From positions 1,860,001 through 1,924,000 of the forward strand of contig CM073196.1 in the NCBI GenBank assembly GCA_037042915.1: a stretch of 64,000 bases of DNA, read 5' to 3'. The position numbers were made by a program, and so were the translations under genes. Origin of the DNA: Auricularia sp. M13 (Eukaryota > Basidiomycota > Agaricomycetes > Auriculariales > Auriculariaceae). This document shows, piece after piece, positions 24,531 through 38,885 of the stretch (its first letter is position 1; each line of letters opens with the position of its first letter). The notes under the pieces are model-generated. The model ran no database searches. It saw only the letters and a list, made by a program, of their open reading frames with translations, and was not told where the DNA came from.

Positions 24531-24536
24531 TGTTCT
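24531..24536 (+). repeat. Left 6-bp direct repeat outside the retroelement pair
   Basis: TGTTCT directly precedes the outer LTR start (GTGTGGTATG). The identical six bases directly follow the outer right LTR border at 38406-38411. Read together they look like a target-site duplication made by one integration of the whole inverted unit. Confidence 0.6.
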
Positions 24537-24607
24537 GTGTGGTATGATCAGTTGCAGGCCAAGGGACGGCCTGCTCCGGACGGATGCATCTGCCTCCGTC
24601 CTCCGTT

Positions 24608-24639
24608 ACGGACGTCCGTCGAGTTACCTCGACGTCCGT
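24608..24639 (+). promoter_or_regulatory. GACGTC palindromes in the LTR U3 region
   Basis: A perfect 12-bp palindrome (ACGGACGTCCGT, 24608-24619) and a second GACGTC (24631-24636) form an imperfect inverted repeat with a short TTAC centre. GACGTC is the core bound by CREB/ATF-type bZIP factors. The pair lies about 75-105 bp before the LTR TATA box and recurs in all four LTR copies. A regulatory role is inference. Confidence 0.45.
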
Positions 24640-24711
24640 AGAGCTACGGTGACACGCTCCACGATGACGGAGATGTCTCTCGGATTCCCTAGTATAGTAA
24701 TGCCCTTCATG

Positions 24712-24719
24712 TATAAATA
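24712..24719 (+). promoter_or_regulatory. LTR TATA box
   Basis: TATAAATA in the LTR, present in each LTR copy; the likely core promoter of the element's transcript. Confidence 0.6.
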
Positions 24720-27700
24720 GGTAGCCCTGAACGGACTCGTACAATTCGAACTTCCCTTCCGCTCTTTGTGAGCCCGTGCATTTGCTCCCGAAGACGGACG
24801 AACACTTCACTTAGCTAAGTGAAGGGTCAGTAGTGACACCCTTCGCTACTCGTACGGCCGTTGACGTTGCTCGAGCAGGCTCTCGACATCGACACCCAGA
24901 ACCAGCGCTATCCGTATACGGCATTGCCGAAGCTTCACCGCAATCAATCCGGTCCGAGACACGATGAACTCCGACCCCGACCACGACCAGGCCGCCACGC
25001 TCTCGGCGGCCCTGCAGTCGACGCCCGATGACTCGCGCCAAGTCATCATGGCTACTATCGCCCGACTCGAGCACATGGTCGCCCAAGCCGATCAACGGGC
25101 GGCCCAGGCCGAATACACGGCCCAGCAGGCCATCTATCAGCAACAGCAGGCTGCGCCCGCGGCTACGCATACTCCGCGCGCCCCTGCTGCGCTCCGTCAC
25201 CCCATGCCCACGTTTAAGGGCGCCTACCTGGAGGACCCCTTCGCTTGGGTTTCCCTCCTCAACGATCACCTCGTCCTCAACAGCGTCCCGCAAGAGCTCT
25301 GGGCTGCCAACGCAGCCGTGCTTCTCGAAGATCTCGCGCGCGAGTGGTACCAGCAATGGCTCAAGTCTCTCGCACTTCAGCCCGGGCAGGTCGTCCCTTG
25401 GGGACAATTCTACGACGCGTTCCTTGAACGGTTCGCGTCGCCCACTCGCGCCGCAGACATTCGGAACCGGCTCAACCAGCTCAAGTACAAGGGCGACATG
25501 ACGGATTATATTCGTCGTTTCTCGCGCCTTGCCGGACAGCTCAGCGACGGCGAGATGACCTACGCCGACCGCCAGTTCTTCTTCTGCCAGGCGCTTCCCG
25601 TCGACGCGCACATCCAGATCCTGCGCTCGCGCCCGACCAACGTCGAGGCGCTCTACGACGCTGCCCGCGACTACGACCGCGTCCTGCGCACTGCTACTGG
25701 CAAAGGACCGCACGCCGTCACCCATTCCGCGCAGCGCGGCGGCGGCGGCAAGCACGCTTCTCGCTCCGCCACGCCCGCTGCTGCCGCGTCCGGCTCCTCG
25801 TTCGGTGACACGCCCATGGACCTCGACACGTTCCAGGTCCGCGGCGGTCGCCCCCAGCGCGCTCCAGCTCCGAACGCGCGCTCTGGCCCGCGCTGCTACA
25901 ACTGCTCGGACGTTGGGCACTTCTCGCGCGACTGCCCGCTCCCGCAGAAGCGCCGCTTCCCGCAGCACCCGCAGCAGCGCCGTGTCACGCCGCACCCGCG
26001 CGGCAACCACAAGTTCAACGCCCTCGACGTTCACGACGAGCCCAACCTCATTGAGCTCGCCGACGCTGCGCTCCCGTCCAGCATCCTCGACGACGTCTTC
26101 GAGGCCGCCGAGGAAACTGCTGCCATTCTCGCGTGCCACGACCTCGAGGTCTATTCCAGCTTTAACACGAAGACCACGCCTGAGTTCGAGCCCGACAACT
26201 TCTTCGTTTACGCCGGCAACGTTGGCTGCCAGCGCGCGGCGTGTGCCGACCCGCTTTCCATGAACAGCTACATCCGCCGCTCGACGACCGAGGCCATTCT
26301 TCGCGGCGACTGGGCCAACCACGGCATCTACACCGCCATTCCAGAGCGCCCCGCGCCTTTCGTTAGCCCAGCCGGCAACCCTATCCGCGAGCAGTTCACG
26401 TTCGACATCGCATTCTTCGATTCTGCGCGCTTCAACGTTACCGCGATGGTCATTGACGACACTGAGCTCCCCGACTCCTACGACATCCTGCTCGGTGTTT
26501 GGTTCTGGCGTGACCACGCCATGTCTCGCCTGAATGACTCTCGCGGCACGCTCAGCATCAGCGTCGCCAACGCCCGCCAGCATGACCCCGGCGCCTGCGG
26601 TACTCGTCACCGCTTCGAGGCCGTCCGCTTCCACAGCAAGACTCGCCCTATGTACTTCAAGGAAGTCGACTCGCGCCCGCCGTCGCCGAGTCCGCCGCCG
26701 CCTGACGCGCCTCCTCCGACTCTCGCCAGCTCCGCTGCTACTCGCGCGGCTTCAGAGGAGCCTCACGTTGAGGACGGCCACGACCGCCTCGACCTCGTCA
26801 TGCTCGCGGATGGCTCACTTATCCCCGTCAACGAGTTCACCGACTCTGACGACGACGACAACCTTCCCGACCTCGTCACGCCCACCGACTCGTCGGGCAT
26901 GTCCCCGCTCTATGCGCCGCTCTCGCCCGCTTACGACGCCGCCGATCCTATGGACGTCGACGACGACAACGCCAGCAGCGCGCCCGAGCCGCCGCGCACC
27001 AGCCGCAAGCGCACGTTCATTGACTTGACCGCCGACGATTCCGGCGACGACGACGGTCTGATCACGCAGACCGCCAAACGCTCGCGCGGCCCGCCTCGTC
27101 GCTACATCACCGACCCGCGCGTCCTCGACCTCTACGTCTCGCGCGACTCGGCTGCGCTGCCGCTGTACCCGATTGTTGCTAACCGCAACCACGAAGGCCG
27201 CGTGCTTCTTGACAACGGCGCCTCGGCCAACTTCATCACGCGCGCCTTCGTCGACACCGTCGGCGCTACTGCACACCCGCTCAAGGCAGCGCGCCAGATC
27301 TCTGGCGCCGGCGAACTGACCACTTGTGAAGCAGCTCACCTTTGGATCAACATCGCCGGCAACGTCGAACATGTTTACGCCTTTGTCATTGACATCGACC
27401 GCGAGTGGGACCTCGTCCTTGGCCGCCCCTGGCTCAAGGATCACATGGCCTACACTGACTGGTGCGATGACTCTGTCGTATTCACTGACGATGGCGTGCA
27501 GTATAAGCTGACTCCAACGAATATAGATTCGGCTCTCGAGGCAAGACGCTCCAGCGCGCGCGCATCTCTTCGCGCGCGCACTCGTGCCTTCCTCAAGACC
27601 TTCTCTCTTCGTTCTAAGTCGTCGCTCTCGACGACCACGCCTCCCAGTGACTCGGACATTGTTTCCCCTGACGCGGACACTCTGTGCCGCGCCCTCGCTC

Positions 27701-30700
27701 TCTTTCTCTTGAATCCCATGATGTACAACATGTTGACCGTACCGATGTACCCTGTACCGATAACGCCCCGTGTACCACTAGCCCTATGACTCCCGAACAA
27801 CCTGTAGCTTGCTCGCCTGTATCCCCAGATGTACCCAGTGCGATGGACACTAACCAACCTGTATCTAGTAACTCGAATGTACCTTCTGTTTCTTTGTACG
27901 ACGCCCAGCTTGATGAGCTGCCTCGAGGACGCCTGAGTTCCTTTGCTCATCGACTCAAGGAGAAGTGCAAGAAACAGTTCGCTCGTGTATTCCGCGACAG
28001 GGTACAATGGCCGAAGCCTAGGAAATGGGTCCACCGCATCGACACTGGTGACGCTCAGCCAATCCGTGCACGCGGCAAGCCTCTCACGCCGCTTGAACAC
28101 GACGCTGTTCGGAAGTTCATTGCCGACGGGCTTGAGGATGGTGTTATCGAGCCGTCTGAGTCTCCATGGTCGTCTCCCGTCCTTCCAGTTCGCAAAAAGG
28201 ACGGTGAATACCGCATCTGCATCGACTTCCGTCGACTCAACGAGGTGACAACCAAGAACTCTTACCCTCTTCCATTAATCCAAGAGTGTTATTTGCTCCT
28301 GCGCGGAGCGAAGCACTTCACTCTGCTCGACTTGAAGTCTGGTTACTGGCAGGTCCAAATCGCCGAAGAAGACCGCCAGAAGACTGCTTTTACTTGTCGA
28401 CAAGGGCACTACCAGTTCCGGGTAATGCCCTTCGGGCTCTGCAACGCACCCGCTACATTCCAGTCTATGATGAATGACATCTTCCGGGATTACCTGGATA
28501 AGTTTGTGATCATCTACTTGGATGACATTATTGTATTCTCACGTTCTATCGAGGAACATGAGGAGCATGTTCTCCTAGTCATGCAGCGACTTGCAGACCA
28601 CGACCTCGTCATTTCCGAGAAGAAATGCCGATTTGCCCAGGATTCTATTGAATATCTTGGACATATCGTCAACGGCGAAGGTGTGCGTACAAACCCGGAC
28701 AAGATAAATAACATATTGTCCTGGCCCGCACCTCAGAACATCACGCAAGTGCGAGGTTTCCTTAATCTTGCTGGTTATTACCGCCGCTTCGTCAACAATT
28801 TTGCACGCATTGCTGGTCCAATGTACAACCTTTTGCAAGGCTCCCCTAAGAAAGGAACTGCAATAATATGGACTCGCGAGTGCCAAGAGTCGTTTGACGC
28901 ACTCAAAGCCCGACTCACCTCAACTCCGCTTCTTAACCATGCCCTCGACCGCGCCATTTTTGTCATCGACACTGACGCGTCCGGAGACTGCCTCGGGGCT
29001 GTCCTTCAACAGCTCCCTCCTGATTTATTGGGGGGGAAGGAGCCCGCGAGCATTGATTTACGTACCTTCAAGTTCTTGGACAAGTCACTTCGTCCTATCG
29101 CATACGAGTCGCGCCGAATGACACCAACCGAGCAGCGTTACTCTGCCCAAGAACGGGAAATGCTCGCGGTCGTCTACGCTCTCCAGAAATGGCGCGGCTA
29201 TGTCGAAGAAAGACTTGGGCAAACGGCTGGCCCGCTTCGCGGACGACGTCGCCCACTTCAACCCGATCATTATCTACCGCCCTGGCCGCAACCAGTTGGC
29301 CGCAGACGCTCTCTCTCGCCGCCCTGGACATGAACCCATTCACGACGACCAAACCATCCAACCCCTCTTTGCGCACCCAATGGTCACCCGCCGTCAGAAC
29401 GCTCTAGCAGCTCAGAAAGCTGCTGAAGAAGCTGCGCTCGCTGAAGACAACGCAGCGACTGCTCATCCACCCAACGACGAGCCGGTACCACCTCATCCAA
29501 CCACTCCCGCGACCTGAGGGCTCTCGACCCACGTCTCCACGTCCACGGCCGCGCCCGCCGACCTGGCAGCCGCCAACACCTGCGCCTGCGCTGCCAGCAG
29601 TCACCAACACCCACGCCGCGCCAGCTCGCGCCGTGCCCGCGCGCCAGCCTGCCAAGGCCGACCTCTTCGCTACGCTGCGCAACTTCGTCGTGCTGCTGCG
29701 CGACGGAAAGCCGTTACCCACCAAGTCTCGCTATATCCTCATCGGAGGACTTCTTCATCGCGTTCTCGACGACCGAACCGTCCTCGTGCCCACTACACTC
29801 GCTGGCGCCGAGCTGATCGCCCGCAATGTGCACGAGGATCTCGGGCACTTCGCCGCCCCTTGCGTACTCAAGGCAGTCGGCGAGCGCGCCTGGTTCCCAC
29901 ACATGACCGAGATTGTCAACGACGTCGTGCAGCGCTGCGACAAATGCCAGTTCGCCCGGCGCGAACAAATGCCCTTGCAGCCGCTGCACCCCCTTCCGCG
30001 GCCTGACGCCTTCGACCGTTGGGCCCTCGACTTCATCGGGCCGCTCCCAAAGTCCAAGGCCGGCAACCGCTACATTTTGACCGGCATGGACCACGGCACT
30101 GACTGGACCCTCGCCCACGCGCTGCCTGCGCGATCCGCGGAAGCCGCAGTCGCAATGCTGCGCCATATCGTTACCACCCACGGCAAGCCTGCCGCGGTGC
30201 TAACTGACAACGGCGCCGAGTTCCTATCCGACTTATTCCAGCTATTCGTTCGACGGCTTGGTATCAAGCACCTCACGACCTCGCCGTATCATCCGCAAAC
30301 CAACGGCAGGCTCGAGAAATTCAATGACGTGCTCACGCAAATCATTACTCGCAAGGCCGCCCCGAACGGACAGGACCTTTGGGATGAGTATCTCCAAGAG
30401 GCCGTCTTCGCTCATCGCGCGCACGTTTCGCGCTCGCACGGCCGCTCTCCGTTCTTCCTCACATACGGCCGTTCTCCGCGTCTCTTCTCTGACTCAGTGT
30501 ATGACGATTTGCGTCGCGTACCTACAGATGAAGAGATTACTACAATACAGCGCCGTCGCATTGAGCACGTTAAGGATCTTGAACGATTCCGTCAAGAAGC
30601 CAACGCTACAGCGCTCAAGCGACTTGAAGATGAGGCTGCACGTCGCGACGACACCTATCGCGAGCGTGGCTTTGCCATCGGTGACATCGTTAAGCGCCTC

Positions 30701-31007
30701 GTTGGCCAGCGTCCGTCCAAGATACACCCTGTCTGGGACGGCCCGTTCATTATCCGCGATGTGACCGATAAGAACACGTACCAGCTGCAGACACGCAATG
30801 GTTATATTCTCCGTAACCTGTATAACGGCGAGAGATTAGCGAAATACGCTCCATCTAACCTCTCGCACGACATCTGGTACGGTACCGCTGATCTACAACG
30901 CCGTTCAGCAGCTGCTGCACTCAATGACAGCATTACTCAGCGTGCCGCTGCCCGCCGTCAACCCGATATCCCTGCATCTGCCGGAGCAGATGCTTGACGA
31001 GGGGGTG

Positions 31008-31222
31008 GTGTGGTATGATCAGTTGCAGGCCAAGGGACGGCCTGCTCCGGACGGATGCATCTGCCTCCGTCCTCCGTTACGGACGTCCGTCGAGTTACCT
31101 CGACGTCCGTAGAGCTACGGTGACACGCTCCACGATGACGGAGATGTCTCTCGGATTCCCTAGTATAGTAATGCCCTTCATGTATAAATAGGTAGCCCTG
31201 AACGGACTCGTACAATTCGAAC
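31008..31222 (+). repeat. Partial right LTR of copy 1
   Basis: The first 215 bp of the LTR, up to ATTCGAAC, apparently identical to the same part of the left LTR. It then abuts inverted gag sequence at 31223 with no visible shared bases at the joint. Confidence 0.85.
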
Positions 31223-31640
31223 AGGAGGGAAACCCAAGCGAAGGGGTCCTCCAGGTAGGCGCCCTTAAACGTGGGCATGGGGTGACGGAGCGCAGCAGGG
31301 GCGCGCGGAGTATGCGTAGCCGCGGGCGCAGCCTGCTGTTGCTGATAGATGGCCTGCTGGGCCGTGTATTCGGCCTGGGCCGCCCGTTGATCGGCTTGGG
31401 CGACCATGTGCTCGAGTCGGGCGATAGTAGCCATGATGACTTGGCGCGAGTCATCGGCGTCGACTGCAGGGCCGCCGAGAGCGTGGCGGCCTGGTCGTGG
31501 TCGGGGTCGGAGTTCATCGTGTCTCGGACCGGATTGATTGCGGTGAAGCTTCGGCAATGCCGTATACGGATAGCGCTGGTTCTGGGTGTCGATGTCGAGA
31601 GCCTGCTCGAGCAACGTCAACGGCCGTACGAGTAGCGAAG
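31223..31640 (-). mobile_element. Inverted leader plus gag-start fragment of the same Ty3/gypsy family
   Basis: Reads on the minus strand as element leader and the first roughly 295 bp of gag (gag start at 31517). It continues without a break into the inner LTR of copy 2, so that LTR is shared by copy 2 and this fragment, as in a tandem array. At 31222/31223 the fragment meets the cut right LTR of copy 1. It is a fossil fragment, nearly identical to the matching part of both copies. Confidence 0.85.
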
Positions 31641-31944
31641 GGTGTCACTACTGACCCTTCACTTAGCTAAGTGAAGTGTTCGTCCGTCTTCGGGAGCAAA
31701 TGCACGGGCTCACAAAGAGCGGAAGGGAAGTTCGAATTGTACGAGTCCGTTCAGGGCTACCTATTTATACATGAAGGGCATTACTATACTAGGGAATCCG
31801 AGAGACATCTCCGTCATCGTGGAGCGTGTCACCGTAGCTCTACGGACGTCGAGGTAACTCGACGGACGTCCGTAACGGAGGACGGAGGCAGATGCATCCG
31901 TCCGGAGCAGGCCGTCCCTTGGCCTGCAACTGATCATACCACAC
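31640..31944 (-). repeat. Inner LTR of copy 2 (3' LTR, shared with the adjoining leader fragment)
   Basis: Complete LTR in reverse orientation, ending CATACCACAC at 31944. It is followed rightwards by the purine-rich tract of copy 2 and leftwards by a second leader and gag start. Confidence 0.8.
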
Positions 31945-34900
31945 CACCCCCTCGTCAAGCATCTGCTCCGGCAGATGCAGGGATATCGGGTTGACGGCGG
32001 GCAGCGGCACGCTGAGTAATGCTGTCATTGAGTGCAGCAGCTGCTGAACGGCGTTGTAGATCAGCGGTACCGTACCAGATGTCGTGCGAGAGGTTAGATG
32101 GAGCGTATTTCGCTAATCTCTCGCCGTTATACAGGTTACGGAGAATATAACCATTGCGTGTCTGCAGCTGGTACGTGTTCTTATCGGTCACATCGCGGAT
32201 AATGAACGGGCCGTCCCAGACAGGGTGTATCTTGGACGGACGCTGGCCAACGAGGCGCTTAACGATGTCACCGATGGCAAAGCCACGCTCCGATAGGTGT
32301 CGTCGCGACGTGCAGCCTCATCTTCAAGTCGCTTGAGCGCTGTAGCGTTGGCTTCTTGACGGAATCGTTCAAGATCCTTAACGTGCTCAATGCGACGGCG
32401 CTGTATTGTAGTAATCTCTTCATCTGTAGGTACGCGACGCAAATCGTCATACACTGAGTCAGAGAAGAGACGCGGAGAACGGCCGTATGTGAGGAAGAAC
32501 GGAGAGCGGCCGTGCGAGCGCGAAACGTGCGCGCGATGAGCGAAGACGGCCTCTTGGAGATACTCATCCCAAAGGTCCTGTCCGTTCGGGGCGGCCTTGC
32601 GAGTAATGATTTGCGTGAGCACGTCATTGAATTTCTCGAGCCTGCCGTTGGTTTGCGGATGATACGGCGAGGTCGTGAGGTGCTTGATACCAAGCCGTCG
32701 AACGAATAGCTGGAATAAGTCGGATAGGAACTCGGCGCCGTTGTCAGTTAGCACCGCGGCAGGCTTGCCGTGGGTGGTAACGATATGGCGAGCATTGCGC
32801 GCTTCCCGCGGATCGCGCAGGCAGCGCGTGGGCGAGGGTCCAGTCAGTGCCGTGGTCCATGCCGGTCAAAATGTAGCGGTTGCCGGCCTTGGACTTTGGG
32901 AGCGGCCCGATGAAGTCGAGGGCCCAACGGTGGCGTCAGGCCGCGGAAGGGGTGCAGCGGCTGCAAGGGCATTTGTTCGCGCCGGGCGAACTGGCATTTG
33001 TCGCAGCGCTGCACGACGTCGTTGACAATCTCGGTCATGTGTGGGAACCAGGCGCGCTCGCCGACTGCCTTGAGTACGCAAGGGGCGGCGAAGTGCCCGA
33101 GATCCTCGTGCACATTGCGGGCGATCAGCTCGGCGCCAGCGAGTGTAGTGGGCACGAGGACGGTTCGGTCGTCGAGAACGCGATGAAGAAGTCCTCCGAT
33201 GAGGATATAGCGAGACTTGGTGGGTAACGGCTTTCCGTCGCGCAGCAGCACGACGAAGTTGCGCAGCGTAGCGAAGAGGTCGGCCTTGGCAGGCTGGCGC
33301 GCGGGCACGGCGCGAGCTGGCGCGGCGTGGGTGTTGGTGACTGCTGGCAGCGCAGGCGCAGGTGTTGGCGGCTGCCAGGTCGGCGGGCGCGGCCGTGGAC
33401 GTGGAGACGTGGGTCGAGAGCCCTCAGGTCGCGGAGTGGTTGGATGAGGTGGTACCGGCTCGTCGTTGGGTGGATGAGCAGTCGCTGCGTTGTCTTCAGC
33501 GAGCGCAGCTTCTTCAGCAGCTTTCTGAGCTGCTAGAGCGTTCTGACGGCGGGTGACCATTGGGTGCGCAAAGAGGGGTTGGATGGTTTGGTCGTCGTGA
33601 ATGGGTTCATGTCCAGGGCGGCGAGAGAGAGCGTCTGCGGCCAACTGGTTGCGGCCAGGGCGGTAGATAATGATCGGGTTGAAGTGGGCGACGTCGTCCG
33701 CGAAGCGGGCCAGCCGTTTGCCCAAGTCTTTCTTCGACATAGCCGCGCCATTTCTGGAGAGCGTAGACGATCGCGAGCATTTCCCGTTCTTGGGCAGAGT
33801 AACGCTGCTCGGTTGGTGTCATTCGGCGCGACTCGTATGCGATAGGACGAAGTGACTTGTCCAAGAACTTGAAGGTACGTAAATCAATGCTCGCGGGCTC
33901 CTTCCCCCCCAATAAATCAGGAGGGAGCTGTTGAAGGACAGCCCCGAGGCAGTCTCCGGACGCGTCAGTGTCGATGACAAAAATGGCGCGGTCGAGGGCA
34001 TGGTTAAGAAGCGGAGTTGAGGTGAGTCGGGCTTTGAGTGCGTCAAACGACTCTTGGCACTCGCGAGTCCATATTATTGCAGTTCCTTTCTTAGGGGAGC
34101 CTTGCAAAAGGTTGTACATTGGACCAGCAATGCGTGCAAAATTGTTGACGGCGGCGGTAATAACCAGCAAGATTAAGGAAACCTCGCACTTGCGTGATGT
34201 TCTGAGGTGCGGGCCAGGACAATATGTTATTTATCTTGTCCGGGTTTGTACGCACACCTTCGCCGTTGACGATATGTCCAAGATATTCAATAGAATCCTG
34301 GGCAAATCGGCATTTCTTCTCGGAAATGACGAGGTCGTGGTCTGCAAGTCGCTGCATGACTAGGAGAACATGCTCCTCATGTTCCTCGATAGAACGTGAG
34401 AATACAATAATGTCATCCAAGTAGATGATCACAAACTTATCCAGGTAATCCCGGAAGATGTCATTCATCATAGACTGGAATGTAGCGGGTGCGTTGCAGA
34501 GCCCGAAGGGCATTACCCGGAACTGGTAGTGCCCTTGTCGACAAGTAAAAGCAGTCTTCTGGCGGTCTTCTTCGGCGATTTGGACCTGCCAGTAACCAGA
34601 CTTCAAGTCGAGCAGAGTGAAGTGCTTCGCTCCGCGCAGGAGCAAATAACACTCTTGGATTAATGGAAGAGGGTAAGAGTTCTTGGTTGTCACCTCGTTG
34701 AGTCGACGGAAGTCGATGCAGATGCGGTATTCACCGTCCTTTTGCGAACTGGAAGGACGGGAGACGACCATGGAGACTCAGACGGCTCGATAACACCATC
34801 CTCAAGCCCGTCGGCAATGAACTTCCGAACAGCGTCGTGTTCAAGCGGCGTGAGAGGCTTGCCGCGTGCACGGATTGGCTGAGCGTCACCAGTGTCGATG

Positions 34901-37900
34901 CGGTGGACCCATTTCCTAGGCTTCGGCCATTGTACCCTGTCGCGGAATACACGAGCGAACTGTTTCTTGCACTTCTCCTTGAGTCGATGAGCAAAGGAAC
35001 TCAGGCGTCCTCGAGGCAGCTCATCAAGCTGGGCGTCGTACAAAGAAACAGAAGGTACATTCGAGTTACTAGATACAGGTTGGTTAGTGTCCATCGCACT
35101 GGGTACATCTGGGGATACAGGCGAGCAAGCTACAGGTTGTTCGGGAGTCATAGGGCTAGTGGTACACGGGGCGTTATCGGTACAGGGTACATCGGTACGG
35201 TCAACATGTTGTACATCATGGGATTCAAGAGAAAGAGAGGCGAGGGCGCGGCACAGAGTGTCCGCGTCAGGGGAAACAATGTCCGAGTCACTGGGAGGCG
35301 TGGTCGTCGAGAGCGACGACTTAGAACGAAGAGAGAAGGTCTTGAGGAAGGCACGAGTGCGCGCGCGAATAGATGCGCGCGCTGCGGAGCGTCTTGCCTC
35401 GAGAGCCGAATCTATATTCGTTGGAGTCAGCTTATACTGCACGCCATCGTCAGTGAATACGACAGAGTCATCGCACCAGTCAGTGTAGGCCATGTGATCC
35501 TTGAGCCAGGGGCGGCCAAGGACGAGGTCCCACTCGCGGTCGATGTCAATGACAAAGGCGTAAACATGTTCGACGTTGCCGGCGATGTTGATCCAAAGGT
35601 GAGCTGCTTCACAAGTGGTCAGTTCGCCGGCGCCAGAGATCTGGCGCGCTGCCTTGAGCGGGTGCGCAGTAGCGCCGACGGTGTCGACGAAGGCGCGCGT
35701 GATGAAGTTGGCCGAGGCGCCGTTGTCAAGAAGCACGCGGCCTTCGTGGTTGCGGTTAGCAACAATCGGGTACAGCGGCAGCGCAGCCGAGTCGCGCGAG
35801 ACGTAGAGGTCGAGGACGCGCGGGTCGGTGATGTAGCGACGAGGCGGGCCGCGCGAGCGTTTGGCGGTCTGCGTGATCAGACCGTCGTCGTCGTCGGAAT
35901 CGTCGGCGGTCAAGTCAATGAACGTGCGCTTGCGGCTGGTGCGCGGCGGCTCGGGCGCGCTGCTGGCGTTGTCGTCGTCGACGTCCATAGGATCGGCGGC
36001 GTCGTAAGCGGGCGAGAGCGGCGCATAGAGCGGGGACATGCCCGACCAGTCGGTGGGCGTGACGAGGTCGGGAAGGTTGTCGTCGTCGCCAGAGTCGGTG
36101 AACTCGTTGGACGGGGATAAGTGAGCCATCCGCGAGCATGACGAGGTCGAGGCGGTCGTGGCCGTCCTCAACGTGAGGCTCCTCTGAAGCCGCGCGAGTA
36201 GCAGCGGAGCTGGCGAGAGTCGGAGGAGGCGCGTCAGGCGGCGGCGGACTCGGCGACGGCGGGCGCGAGTCGACTTCCTTGAAGTACATAGGGCGAGTCT
36301 TGCTGTGGAAGCGGACGGCCTCGAAGCGGTGACGAGTACCGCAGGCGCCGGGGTCATGCTGGCGGGCGTTGGCGACGCTGATGCTGAGCGTGCCGCGAGA
36401 GTCATTCAGGCGAGACATGGCGTGGTCACGCCAGAACCAAACACCGAGCAGGATGTCGTAGGAGTCGGGGAGCTCAGTGTCGTCAATGACCATCGCGGTA
36501 ACGTTGAAGCGCGCAGAATCGAAGAATGCGATGTCGAACGTGAACTGCTCGCGGATAGGGTTGCCGGCTGGGCTAACGAAAGGCGCGGGGCGCTCTGGAA
36601 TGGCGGTGTAGATGCCGTGGTTGGCCCAGTCGCCGCGAAGAATGGCCTCGGTCGTCGAGCGGCGGATGTAGCTGTTCATGGAAAGCGGGTCGAAGTACAC
36701 GTCGCGCGCGCGCTGGCAGCCAACGTTGCCGGCGTAAACGAAGAAGTTGTCGGGCTCGAACTCAGGCGTGGTCTTCGTGTTAAAGCTGGAATAGACCTCG
36801 AGGTCGTGGCACGCGAGAATGGCAGCAGTTTCCTCGGCGGCCTCGAAGACGTCGTCGAGGATGCTGGACGGGAGCGCAGCGTCGGCGAGCTCAATGAGGT
36901 TGGGCTCGTCGTGAACGTCGAGGGCGTTGAACTTGTGGTTGCCGCGCGGGTGCGGCGTGACACGGCGCTGCTGCGGGTGCTGCGGGAAGCGGCGCTTCTG
37001 CGGGAGCGGGCAGTCGCGCGAGAAGTGCCCAACGTCCGAGCAGTTGTAGCAGCGCGGGCCAGAGCGCGCGTTCGGAGCTGGAGCGCTGGGGGCGACCGCC
37101 GCGGACCTGGAACGTGTCGAGGTCCATGGGCGTGTCACCGAACGAGGAGCCGGACGCGGCAGCAGCGGGCGTGGCGGAGCGAGAAGCGTGCTTGCCGCCG
37201 CCGCCGCGCTGCGCGGAATGGGTGACGGCGTGCGGTCCTTTGCCAGTAGCAGTGCGCAGGACGCGGTCGTAGTCGCGGGCAGCGTCGTAGAGCGCCTCGA
37301 CGTTGGTCGGCGCGAGCGCAGGATCTGGATGTGCGCGTCGACGGGAAGCGCCTGGCAGAAGAAGAACTGGCGGTCGGCGTAGGTCATCTCGCCGTCGCTG
37401 AGCTGTCCGGCAAGGCGCGAGAAACGACGAATATAATCCGTCATGTCGCCCTTGTACTTGAGCTGGTTGAGCCGGTTCCGAATGTCTGCGGCGCGAGTGG
37501 GCGACGCGAACCGTTCAAGGAACGCGTCGTAGAATTGTCCCCAAGGGACGACCTGCCCGGGCTGAAGTGCGAGAGACTTGAGCCATTGCTGGTACCACTC
37601 GCGCGCGAGATCTTCGAGAAGCACGGCTGCGTTGGCAGCCCAGAGCTCTTGCGGGACGCTGTTGAGGACGAGGTGATCGTTGAGGAGGGAAACCCAAGCG
37701 AAGGGGTCCTCCAGGTAGGCGCCCTTAAACGTGGGCATGGGGTGACGGAGCGCAGCAGGGGCGCGCGGAGTATGCGTAGCCGCGGGCGCAGCCTGCTGTT
37801 GCTGATAGATGGCCTGCTGGGCCGTGTATTCGGCCTGGGCCGCCCGTTGATCGGCTTGGGCGACCATGTGCTCGAGTCGGGCGATAGTAGCCATGATGAC

Positions 37901-38099
37901 TTGGCGCGAGTCATCGGGCGCCGACTGCAGGGCCGCCGAGAGCGTGGCGGCCTGGTCGTGGTCGGGGTCGGAGTTCATCGTGTCTCGGACCGGATTGATT
38001 GCGGTGAAGCTTCGGCAATGCCGTATACGGATAGCGCTGGTTCTGGGTGTCGATGTCGAGAGCCTGCTCGAGCAACGTCAACGGCCGTACGAGTAGCGA

Positions 38100-38405
38100 A
38101 GGGTGTCACTACTGACCCTTCACTTAGCTAAGTGAAGTGTTCGTCCGTCTTCGGGAGCAAATGCACGGGCTCACAAAGAGCGGAAGGGAAGTTCGAATTG
38201 TACGAGTCCGTTCAGGGCTACCTATTTATACATGAAGGGCATTACTATACTAGGGAATCCGAGAGACATCTCCGTCATCGTGGAGCGTGTCACCGTAGCT
38301 CTACGGACGTCGAGGTAACTCGACGGACGTCCGTAACGGAGGACGGAGGCAGATGCATCCGTCCGGAGCAGGCCGTCCCTTGGCCTGCAACTGATCATAC
38401 CACAC
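38100..38405 (-). repeat. Outer LTR of copy 2 (5' LTR)
   Basis: Reverse-oriented LTR whose U3 start faces outward at 38405, mirroring the outer LTR of copy 1. It carries the same TATA box and GACGTC palindromes. The inner (U5) border is uncertain. Confidence 0.8.
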
Positions 38406-38411
38406 TGTTCT
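38406..38411 (+). repeat. Right 6-bp direct repeat outside the retroelement pair
   Basis: TGTTCT, identical and in the same orientation as 24531-24536. Together they bracket the whole 13,869-bp inverted structure. Confidence 0.6.
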
Positions 38412-38885
38412 GTCGCGAATTCATTGTCCGACTAAGCATACCACGCACCACGCCTGGGATTGATGGAGCAGCTTCGGAGGCAACACTTCGTGTAACACCA
38501 CGCGTCCGTACGATTTGGCGCTTCTAAGGGAATTCCTGTTCATCTCAGGATGTCAGCTCCGTCTCAGCGTGCTGGCCTTCAAGTTGTTTGACGAACCATT
38601 TCCACAACATCCTCGGTGTAAATCCACCTTCGCTATTGTTCTGTTATTAGTCATGCCACAGCTCAGTGGAGACAGAAGGTTAGGCGAGAGATTCGGAGGT
38701 TAGCGACGCGTGGCCACTGGTCGATGAGGACCACAGTCCTCGATATTGTCACACTCCGGACCCTATCTGAAGCGCCTAGGGCAACCAATTGAGCGACGGA
38801 AAGCGTCTTTCATGGTTGATAGAAGATAGTGGCCAAGAACCATGCTACTCGTGGTTAACACGGCATCGACGAAAATGAAACCACA
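38412..38885. other. Gene-free stretch between the retroelements and MTR3
   Basis: Unique-looking sequence with only short open frames; no repeat, RNA or domain is recognisable. It is the far flank of the retroelement insertion site. Confidence 0.5.

Follow-up and report, generated by a model that had tools for sequence, protein, structure and literature searches.

A tail-to-tail pair of Ty3/gypsy copies with both U3 ends outward in an Auricularia genome, and its possible origin in a single insertion of two cDNAs

A canonical insertion of an LTR retrotransposon leaves one U3 end and one U5 end facing the host, and the locus described here raises the question of how two copies of a Ty3/gypsy element could come to lie tail to tail with a U3 start at each outer border. 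Our analysis draws on the sequence of one 64-kb stretch of DNA (C4:1860001-1924000 of a 52.1-Mb genome in 14 contigs, hereafter the window), on relatives of the element within the same genome, and on open-licence papers. Comparison of the window with itself confirmed the inverted pair with two outward U3 borders that the initial annotation had reported: positions 24537-31222 match 38405-31730 in inverted orientation over 6,696 columns at 99.43% identity, with 8 mismatches and 21 gap openings. The same comparison returned the LTR matches and a further copy of the first part of the element at 31223-31944, and besides the pair and its parts it listed no repeat of at least 60 bp in the 64-kb window.

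In the assembly, copy 1 encodes gag with a zinc knuckle and a protease, followed by reverse transcriptase (RT), RNase H and then integrase (Pfam matches, on three ORFs), which is the Ty3/gypsy domain order, with RNase H before integrase. The TG..CA ends of the LTRs and a polypurine tract ahead of the 3′ LTR are likewise as expected for a Ty3/gypsy LTR retrotransposon (Table 1). The pol reading frame of copy 1 is broken. In a search for the primer binding site that compared LTR with leader, the longest complement was 8 bases, at unrelated places. A perfect 20-bp palindrome, CTTCACTTAGCTAAGTGAAG, straddles the LTR-leader boundary at 24805-24824, where the primer binding site would be expected; as a guess, it might have a role in RNA pairing or priming.

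Table 1. Positions in the window of the parts of the pair and of the repeat at its borders
Feature	Position	Strand	Basis
Left copy of the 7-bp direct repeat TGTTCTG, touching the left LTR	24531..24537	+	sequence
Copy 1 5′ LTR, 272 bp, TG..CA, TATA box at LTR position 175	24538..24809	+	border from relatives
Copy 1 internal region: leader, gag, protease, RT, RNase H, integrase, polypurine tract; 56-bp deletion at about 29208	24810..31008	+	ORFs, Pfam
Copy 1 3′ LTR, truncated to 214 bp, 58 bp missing	31009..31222	+	self-comparison
Central joint, blunt, no bases common or added	31222..31223	.	sequence
449 bp of leader and gag start past the inner LTR of copy 2	31223..31671	-	self-comparison
Copy 2 inner (3′) LTR, complete, 272 bp	31672..31943	-	self-comparison, genome search
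Copy 2 internal region, frames broken at several places; 56-bp deletion at about 33731	31944..38132	-	
Copy 2 5′ LTR, complete, 272 bp	38133..38404	-	sequence, genome search
Extra C between the right LTR end and the repeat (G on the element's strand)	38405..38405	+	sequence
Right copy of the 7-bp repeat TGTTCTG	38406..38412	+	sequence

The limits of the LTR were set using relatives. A genome search with the 5′ end of the element gave at least nine matches (all first-look candidates were scored, and such counts are lower bounds), which comprise the four LTR places of the pair, two LTRs and two rearranged pieces belonging to an element on contig C1, and one LTR on contig C11. The C1 LTRs are 94-95% and the C11 solo LTR 93% identical to those of the pair, and both loci define an LTR that runs from TGTGG to CACTTCA. 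Read by eye, the target duplications flush with these ends are CTGA at the C1 element and ATCT at the C11 solo LTR, so that, as judged from two loci (n = 2), the target duplication of the family is 4 bp; the distant relatives on C6, C2 and C12 had no recognisable LTRs and leave this length to those two loci. The LTR start originally placed at 24537 is thus one base too far out: since the relatives start with TGTGG, it belongs at 24538, and positions 24537 (G) and 38405 (C) both fall outside the LTR. An LTR starting GTGTGG with a 6-bp duplication finds no support, as TGTGG starts and 4-bp duplications are seen at the C1 element and at the C11 solo LTR.

With these limits, both outer borders lie at the exact U3 terminus. 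The left border reads GAGATGTTCTG and then TGTGG, and the right border reads CCACA and then CTGTTCTGTCGCG. The 6-bp TGTTCT that had been reported outside both copies is indeed present at 24531-24536 and 38406-38411, but the direct repeat is 7 bp long (TGTTCTG), and the 6-bp stretch stands off the LTR ends. The 7-bp repeat adjoins the left LTR and is one C short of the right LTR, such that only 3 bp (CTG) are repeated flush with both LTR ends, whereas 7 bp are repeated when an offset of one base is allowed; a flush 4-bp duplication, as is typical of the family, was not found. In a draw of 400,000 random pairs of positions in the window, all outside the element, repeats of at least 7 bp within 1 bp of both ends arose with a frequency of 0.0005 and those of at least 6 bp with 0.0014, and flush repeats of at least 3 and at least 4 bp arose with frequencies of 0.023 and 0.006, respectively. 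TGTTCTG is not rare in the window, where it occurs 11 times on the + strand, one of these inside the element. We note also that each flank holds two copies of it, no more than about 235 bp from the insertion (24314, 24531, 38406 and 38637).

A 7-bp repeat near both borders that is nevertheless not the 4 bp of the relatives points to a single site, yet not to the ordinary 4-bp reaction of the family. The extra C on the right corresponds to the polypurine-tract base immediately ahead of U3 and is in keeping with a cDNA end left unprocessed, although a single base may be due to chance. The form of the empty site would discriminate between routes to this repeat: a site with a single TGTTCTG, ATGTTCTGTCGCG, would support a duplication of 6-7 bp by host repair, and GATGTTCTGTTCTGTCGCG would support either two 4-bp duplications that overlap or one of 3 bp of the integrase type. 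The flanks themselves are distinct, as the initial annotation held, in that a genome search with 97 bp of the left and 595 bp of the right flank matched each to itself only.

At the centre of the pair (31222/31223), LTR position 214 of copy 1 abuts the far end of the copy 2 strand with zero bases shared or added, and no integrase-type TG/CA end is present at this joint. To judge from the TATA box, LTR position 214 would lie near the expected U3/R border. A blunt joint without integrase ends, as in end-joined cDNA capture, is thus found at the centre, while the outer borders do carry LTR termini. Nor are the two copies complete and symmetric, since the 3′ LTR of copy 1 stops at 214 of 272 bp, and copy 2 has a full inner LTR plus the 449-bp extension. 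Nested or neighbouring LTR retrotransposons place two related elements side by side, and nesting leaves a border between U5 and host DNA. No such border occurs at either edge or at the centre of 24531-38412, for either copy, and nested insertion was rejected on this ground.

Both arms point to one template. A stretch of 56 bp in the RNase H region is present in the C1 relative, the closest one, and absent from both arms, a deletion that breaks the frame, and the LTR stretches of the two copies show no difference in their overlap. For the C6 and C2 relatives, the alignments break at the site of this deletion with genomic gaps of the same order, and the C12 alignment does not reach it. In the 52-Mb genome, the first-look candidates, all of which were scored (6 of 6 and 9 of 9, as lower bounds), included no further copy with 99% identity over the element. 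The common deletion, together with the lack of another equally close full copy among these, indicates that the arms derive from one RNA, or that one arm derives from the other. The C1 relative is 88 to 97% identical to the pair by long piece, with one 384-bp stretch (C1:5855999-5856382) at 100%, and may be a mosaic.

In the parts alignable to the C1 relative, the arms differ by 21 clustered events (split more finely in the pairwise listing of differences), consisting of 13 indels and 8 substitutions; copy 2 stands apart from C1 in 12 of these and copy 1 in 5, with 4 unassigned. The initial annotation had used the scattered differences to argue against a fold-back or assembly fault. This argument is weak, as 13 of the 21 events are small indels; the differences look like residual long-read error, and neither prove nor disprove the pair.

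The C1 relative contains two further inverted structures. Just 3′ of its 5′ LTR there is a 166-bp insert (L011:1136-1301), located inside a palindrome, in which two U3 pieces are opposed: LTR positions 108-188 in sense orientation, one base, and positions 158-75 in antisense orientation, with AGCTAA on both sides. Its structure may reflect inverted joining of cDNA pieces, or fold-back copying, earlier in the family, and another origin is also possible; such a smaller inverted joining would make the large inverted pair less isolated. The second is a 3.4-kb palindromic insert within the C1 element (C1:5856383-5859785), with arms of about 1.7 kb together with a 7-bp repeat, AGAAGAC. Genome-wide, the arm is matched 18 times, in 8 inverted pairs and 2 single matches (the insert's own two being counted), and the insert looks like a separate, multi-copy fold-back transposable element. 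The possibility that it represents the same phenomenon as the pair was dropped in view of these 18 matches.

Taking these observations together, the exact U3 termini, the repeat near both of them, the single-match flanks, the common 56-bp deletion and the lack of an equally close full copy among those scored favour a single insertion. Specifically, we consider it moderately probable that two cDNAs were inserted in one event, with their U3 ends outward and their U5-side ends end-joined to each other. In such an event, a defective Ty3/gypsy RNA would have given rise to both cDNAs, probably within one particle. The cDNAs would have entered one target, with the U3 end of each joined to one of its two sides, and the U5-side ends would have been joined to each other without homology, once 58 bp were gone from one cDNA and while the other still carried 449 bp past its LTR. 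The sequence is compatible with either of two orders: the U5-side ends might have been joined first and the resulting dimer then inserted, or integrase might have paired the U3 ends of two cDNAs, leaving the cell to seal the free ends. End joining would have produced the centre, and the host would probably have joined at least one outer end as well, because the repeat is not the 4 bp of the relatives and the extra base resembles that of an unprocessed cDNA. The pair looks to be the product of a single faulty insertion by an element of known kind, and not a new kind of element.

Several features count against a single event. The family-typical 4-bp duplication is absent, and a one-site reading requires either an atypical duplication of 6 or 7 bp together with an extra base, or a 3-bp duplication with a chance extension. 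Furthermore, the 449-bp extension of copy 2 calls for an additional irregular step, such as a late-primed or tandem cDNA. The proposal of the initial annotation, that integrase inserted an inverted dimer in one step, survives as regards the single event, which is the best reading, but integrase action with a normal 6-bp duplication is unsupported, because duplications in the relatives are of 4 bp (n = 2), the repeat stands off one LTR end and the centre has no TG/CA end. A more specific version, in which a fungal Ty3/gypsy integrase brings two cDNAs of one particle together by their U3 ends and inserts both into one target, the U5 ends then being sealed by the host to give a stable tail-to-tail pair with a CTG duplication one base under the normal length, strikes us as doubtful.

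Among the alternatives to a single insertion of two cDNAs, the strongest is that the outer junctions are real and the interior is mis-assembled, the true structure being a longer or reordered array, or two haplotypes merged via a chimeric or hairpin read. We consider this unlikely. Only very long reads would span arms of 6.7 kb, the evidence for the central joint is the assembly, and the preponderance of small indels between the arms (13 of the 21 events) resembles unpolished long-read sequence. However, both borders are exact LTR ends, and the assembly holds another palindromic element, that on C1 (arms of about 1.7 kb, with 8 inverted pairs among its 18 matches). A plain fold-back read, which would repeat one flank on both sides, is rejected, as the flanks differ and each matched itself only.

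Both of the remaining alternatives, two hits at one spot with loss between them and duplication in place, are less likely than a fault in the interior of the assembly. In the first, two separate insertions in opposite orientations at the same spot would have been followed by deletion of the inner ends. Worked out by hand, an empty site of GATGTTCTGTTCTGTCGCG with overlapping 4-bp duplications, TCTG for copy 1 and CTGT for copy 2, could explain both borders, and copy 1 as the donor of copy 2 would explain the common 56-bp deletion. Such a history nevertheless calls for two hits about one base apart in a 52-Mb genome, as well as for a second element in tandem form and a deletion, and we regard it as decidedly improbable. 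A tRNA search of the window, of 12 kb around the C1 relative and of 8 kb around the C11 relative gave no hit (ARAGORN, in its bacterial setting, with which an intron-bearing tRNA might be missed), for which reason a tRNA-directed hotspot was dropped, and by eye the flanks of the C1 and C11 relatives are unlike the site of the pair.

In the second, one normal insertion would later have been copied in inverted orientation within the chromosome by fold-back replication. This would account for arms that are nearly identical and share a deletion, and fold-back inverted copies at breaks are described in yeast (PMC11724301). Fold-back replication would, however, carry the left flank into the inverted copy or stop at an arbitrary point, whereas the second copy terminates precisely at the end of U3, with a repeat of the left flank next to it, and there is no microhomology at the inversion joint, such that this origin appears very improbable. 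Inversion by recombination between two opposed elements was rejected by reasoning, since each resulting hybrid would keep one U3 and one U5 end.

A single insertion of two cDNAs can be compared with known systems. Ty1 multimeric arrays, in which more than one cDNA copy enters together, were reportedly described by Bryk et al. in 2001 as direct tandems, whereas the fungal pair is inverted. Among HIV-1 aberrant proviruses formed with integrase inhibitors or integrase mutants, most have one normal end, whereas the other is often truncated, its joint being with viral DNA, in either orientation, or with host DNA, and host duplications usually span hundreds or thousands of bp (PMC5041404). Such proviruses are a precedent for the pair as regards both these joints and a host duplication of other than normal length. 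The pair differs from them, with their one end joined irregularly to the host, in that its outer ends are both complete to the LTR terminus and both U3, with a repeat of 3-7 bp.

Capture of Ty1 cDNA at double-strand breaks in yeast likewise yields end-joined cDNA, often with extra bases at the LTR ends that are found in cDNA only (in wild-type cells, 40 of 56 insertions of the 3′ LTR carried such bases, according to the preprint PMC10802722). The captured Ty1 sequences described there are fragments, whereas the pair consists of two near full-length copies with U3 ends outward (PMC10802722). Finally, inverted double insertions from one locus at breaks in yeast were frequent among the complex insertions of several mutants (15 of 23, 14 of 18 and 3 of 3 in three of them, although a fourth had 9 of 144), and the microhomology at the inversion joint had a median length of 6 bp, Ty and rDNA sequences being excluded (PMC11724301). 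These are similar to the pair in that two pieces of one source are inserted together and inverted, but they are short pieces with microhomology joints; that the joint of the pair has none, against a median of 6 bp, argues against the fold-back copying model (PMC11724301).

Within the genome, inspection by eye of 150 integrase-domain matches (the best 150 of 222 candidates) gave no equal-scoring neighbours on opposite strands less than 20 kb apart, in a screen that was insensitive enough to miss copy 2 itself. In the titles and abstract beginnings of the open-licence papers listed in text searches, we recognised no pair of LTR retrotransposons with two outward U3 ends in one target duplication, which is not proof of absence. 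The frequency of such pairs could be tested by screening genomes for outward U3 ends.

If reads bear it out, the locus would document a natural case in which two cDNAs came into one site together, each with its U3 end facing out. It would also suggest that a living fungus can survive a breach of the rule by which the integrase complex pairs U3 with U5 and still keep the chromosome. Pairs with outward U3 ends would, moreover, be seeds of long palindromes, from which rearrangement or silencing by hairpin RNA may follow.
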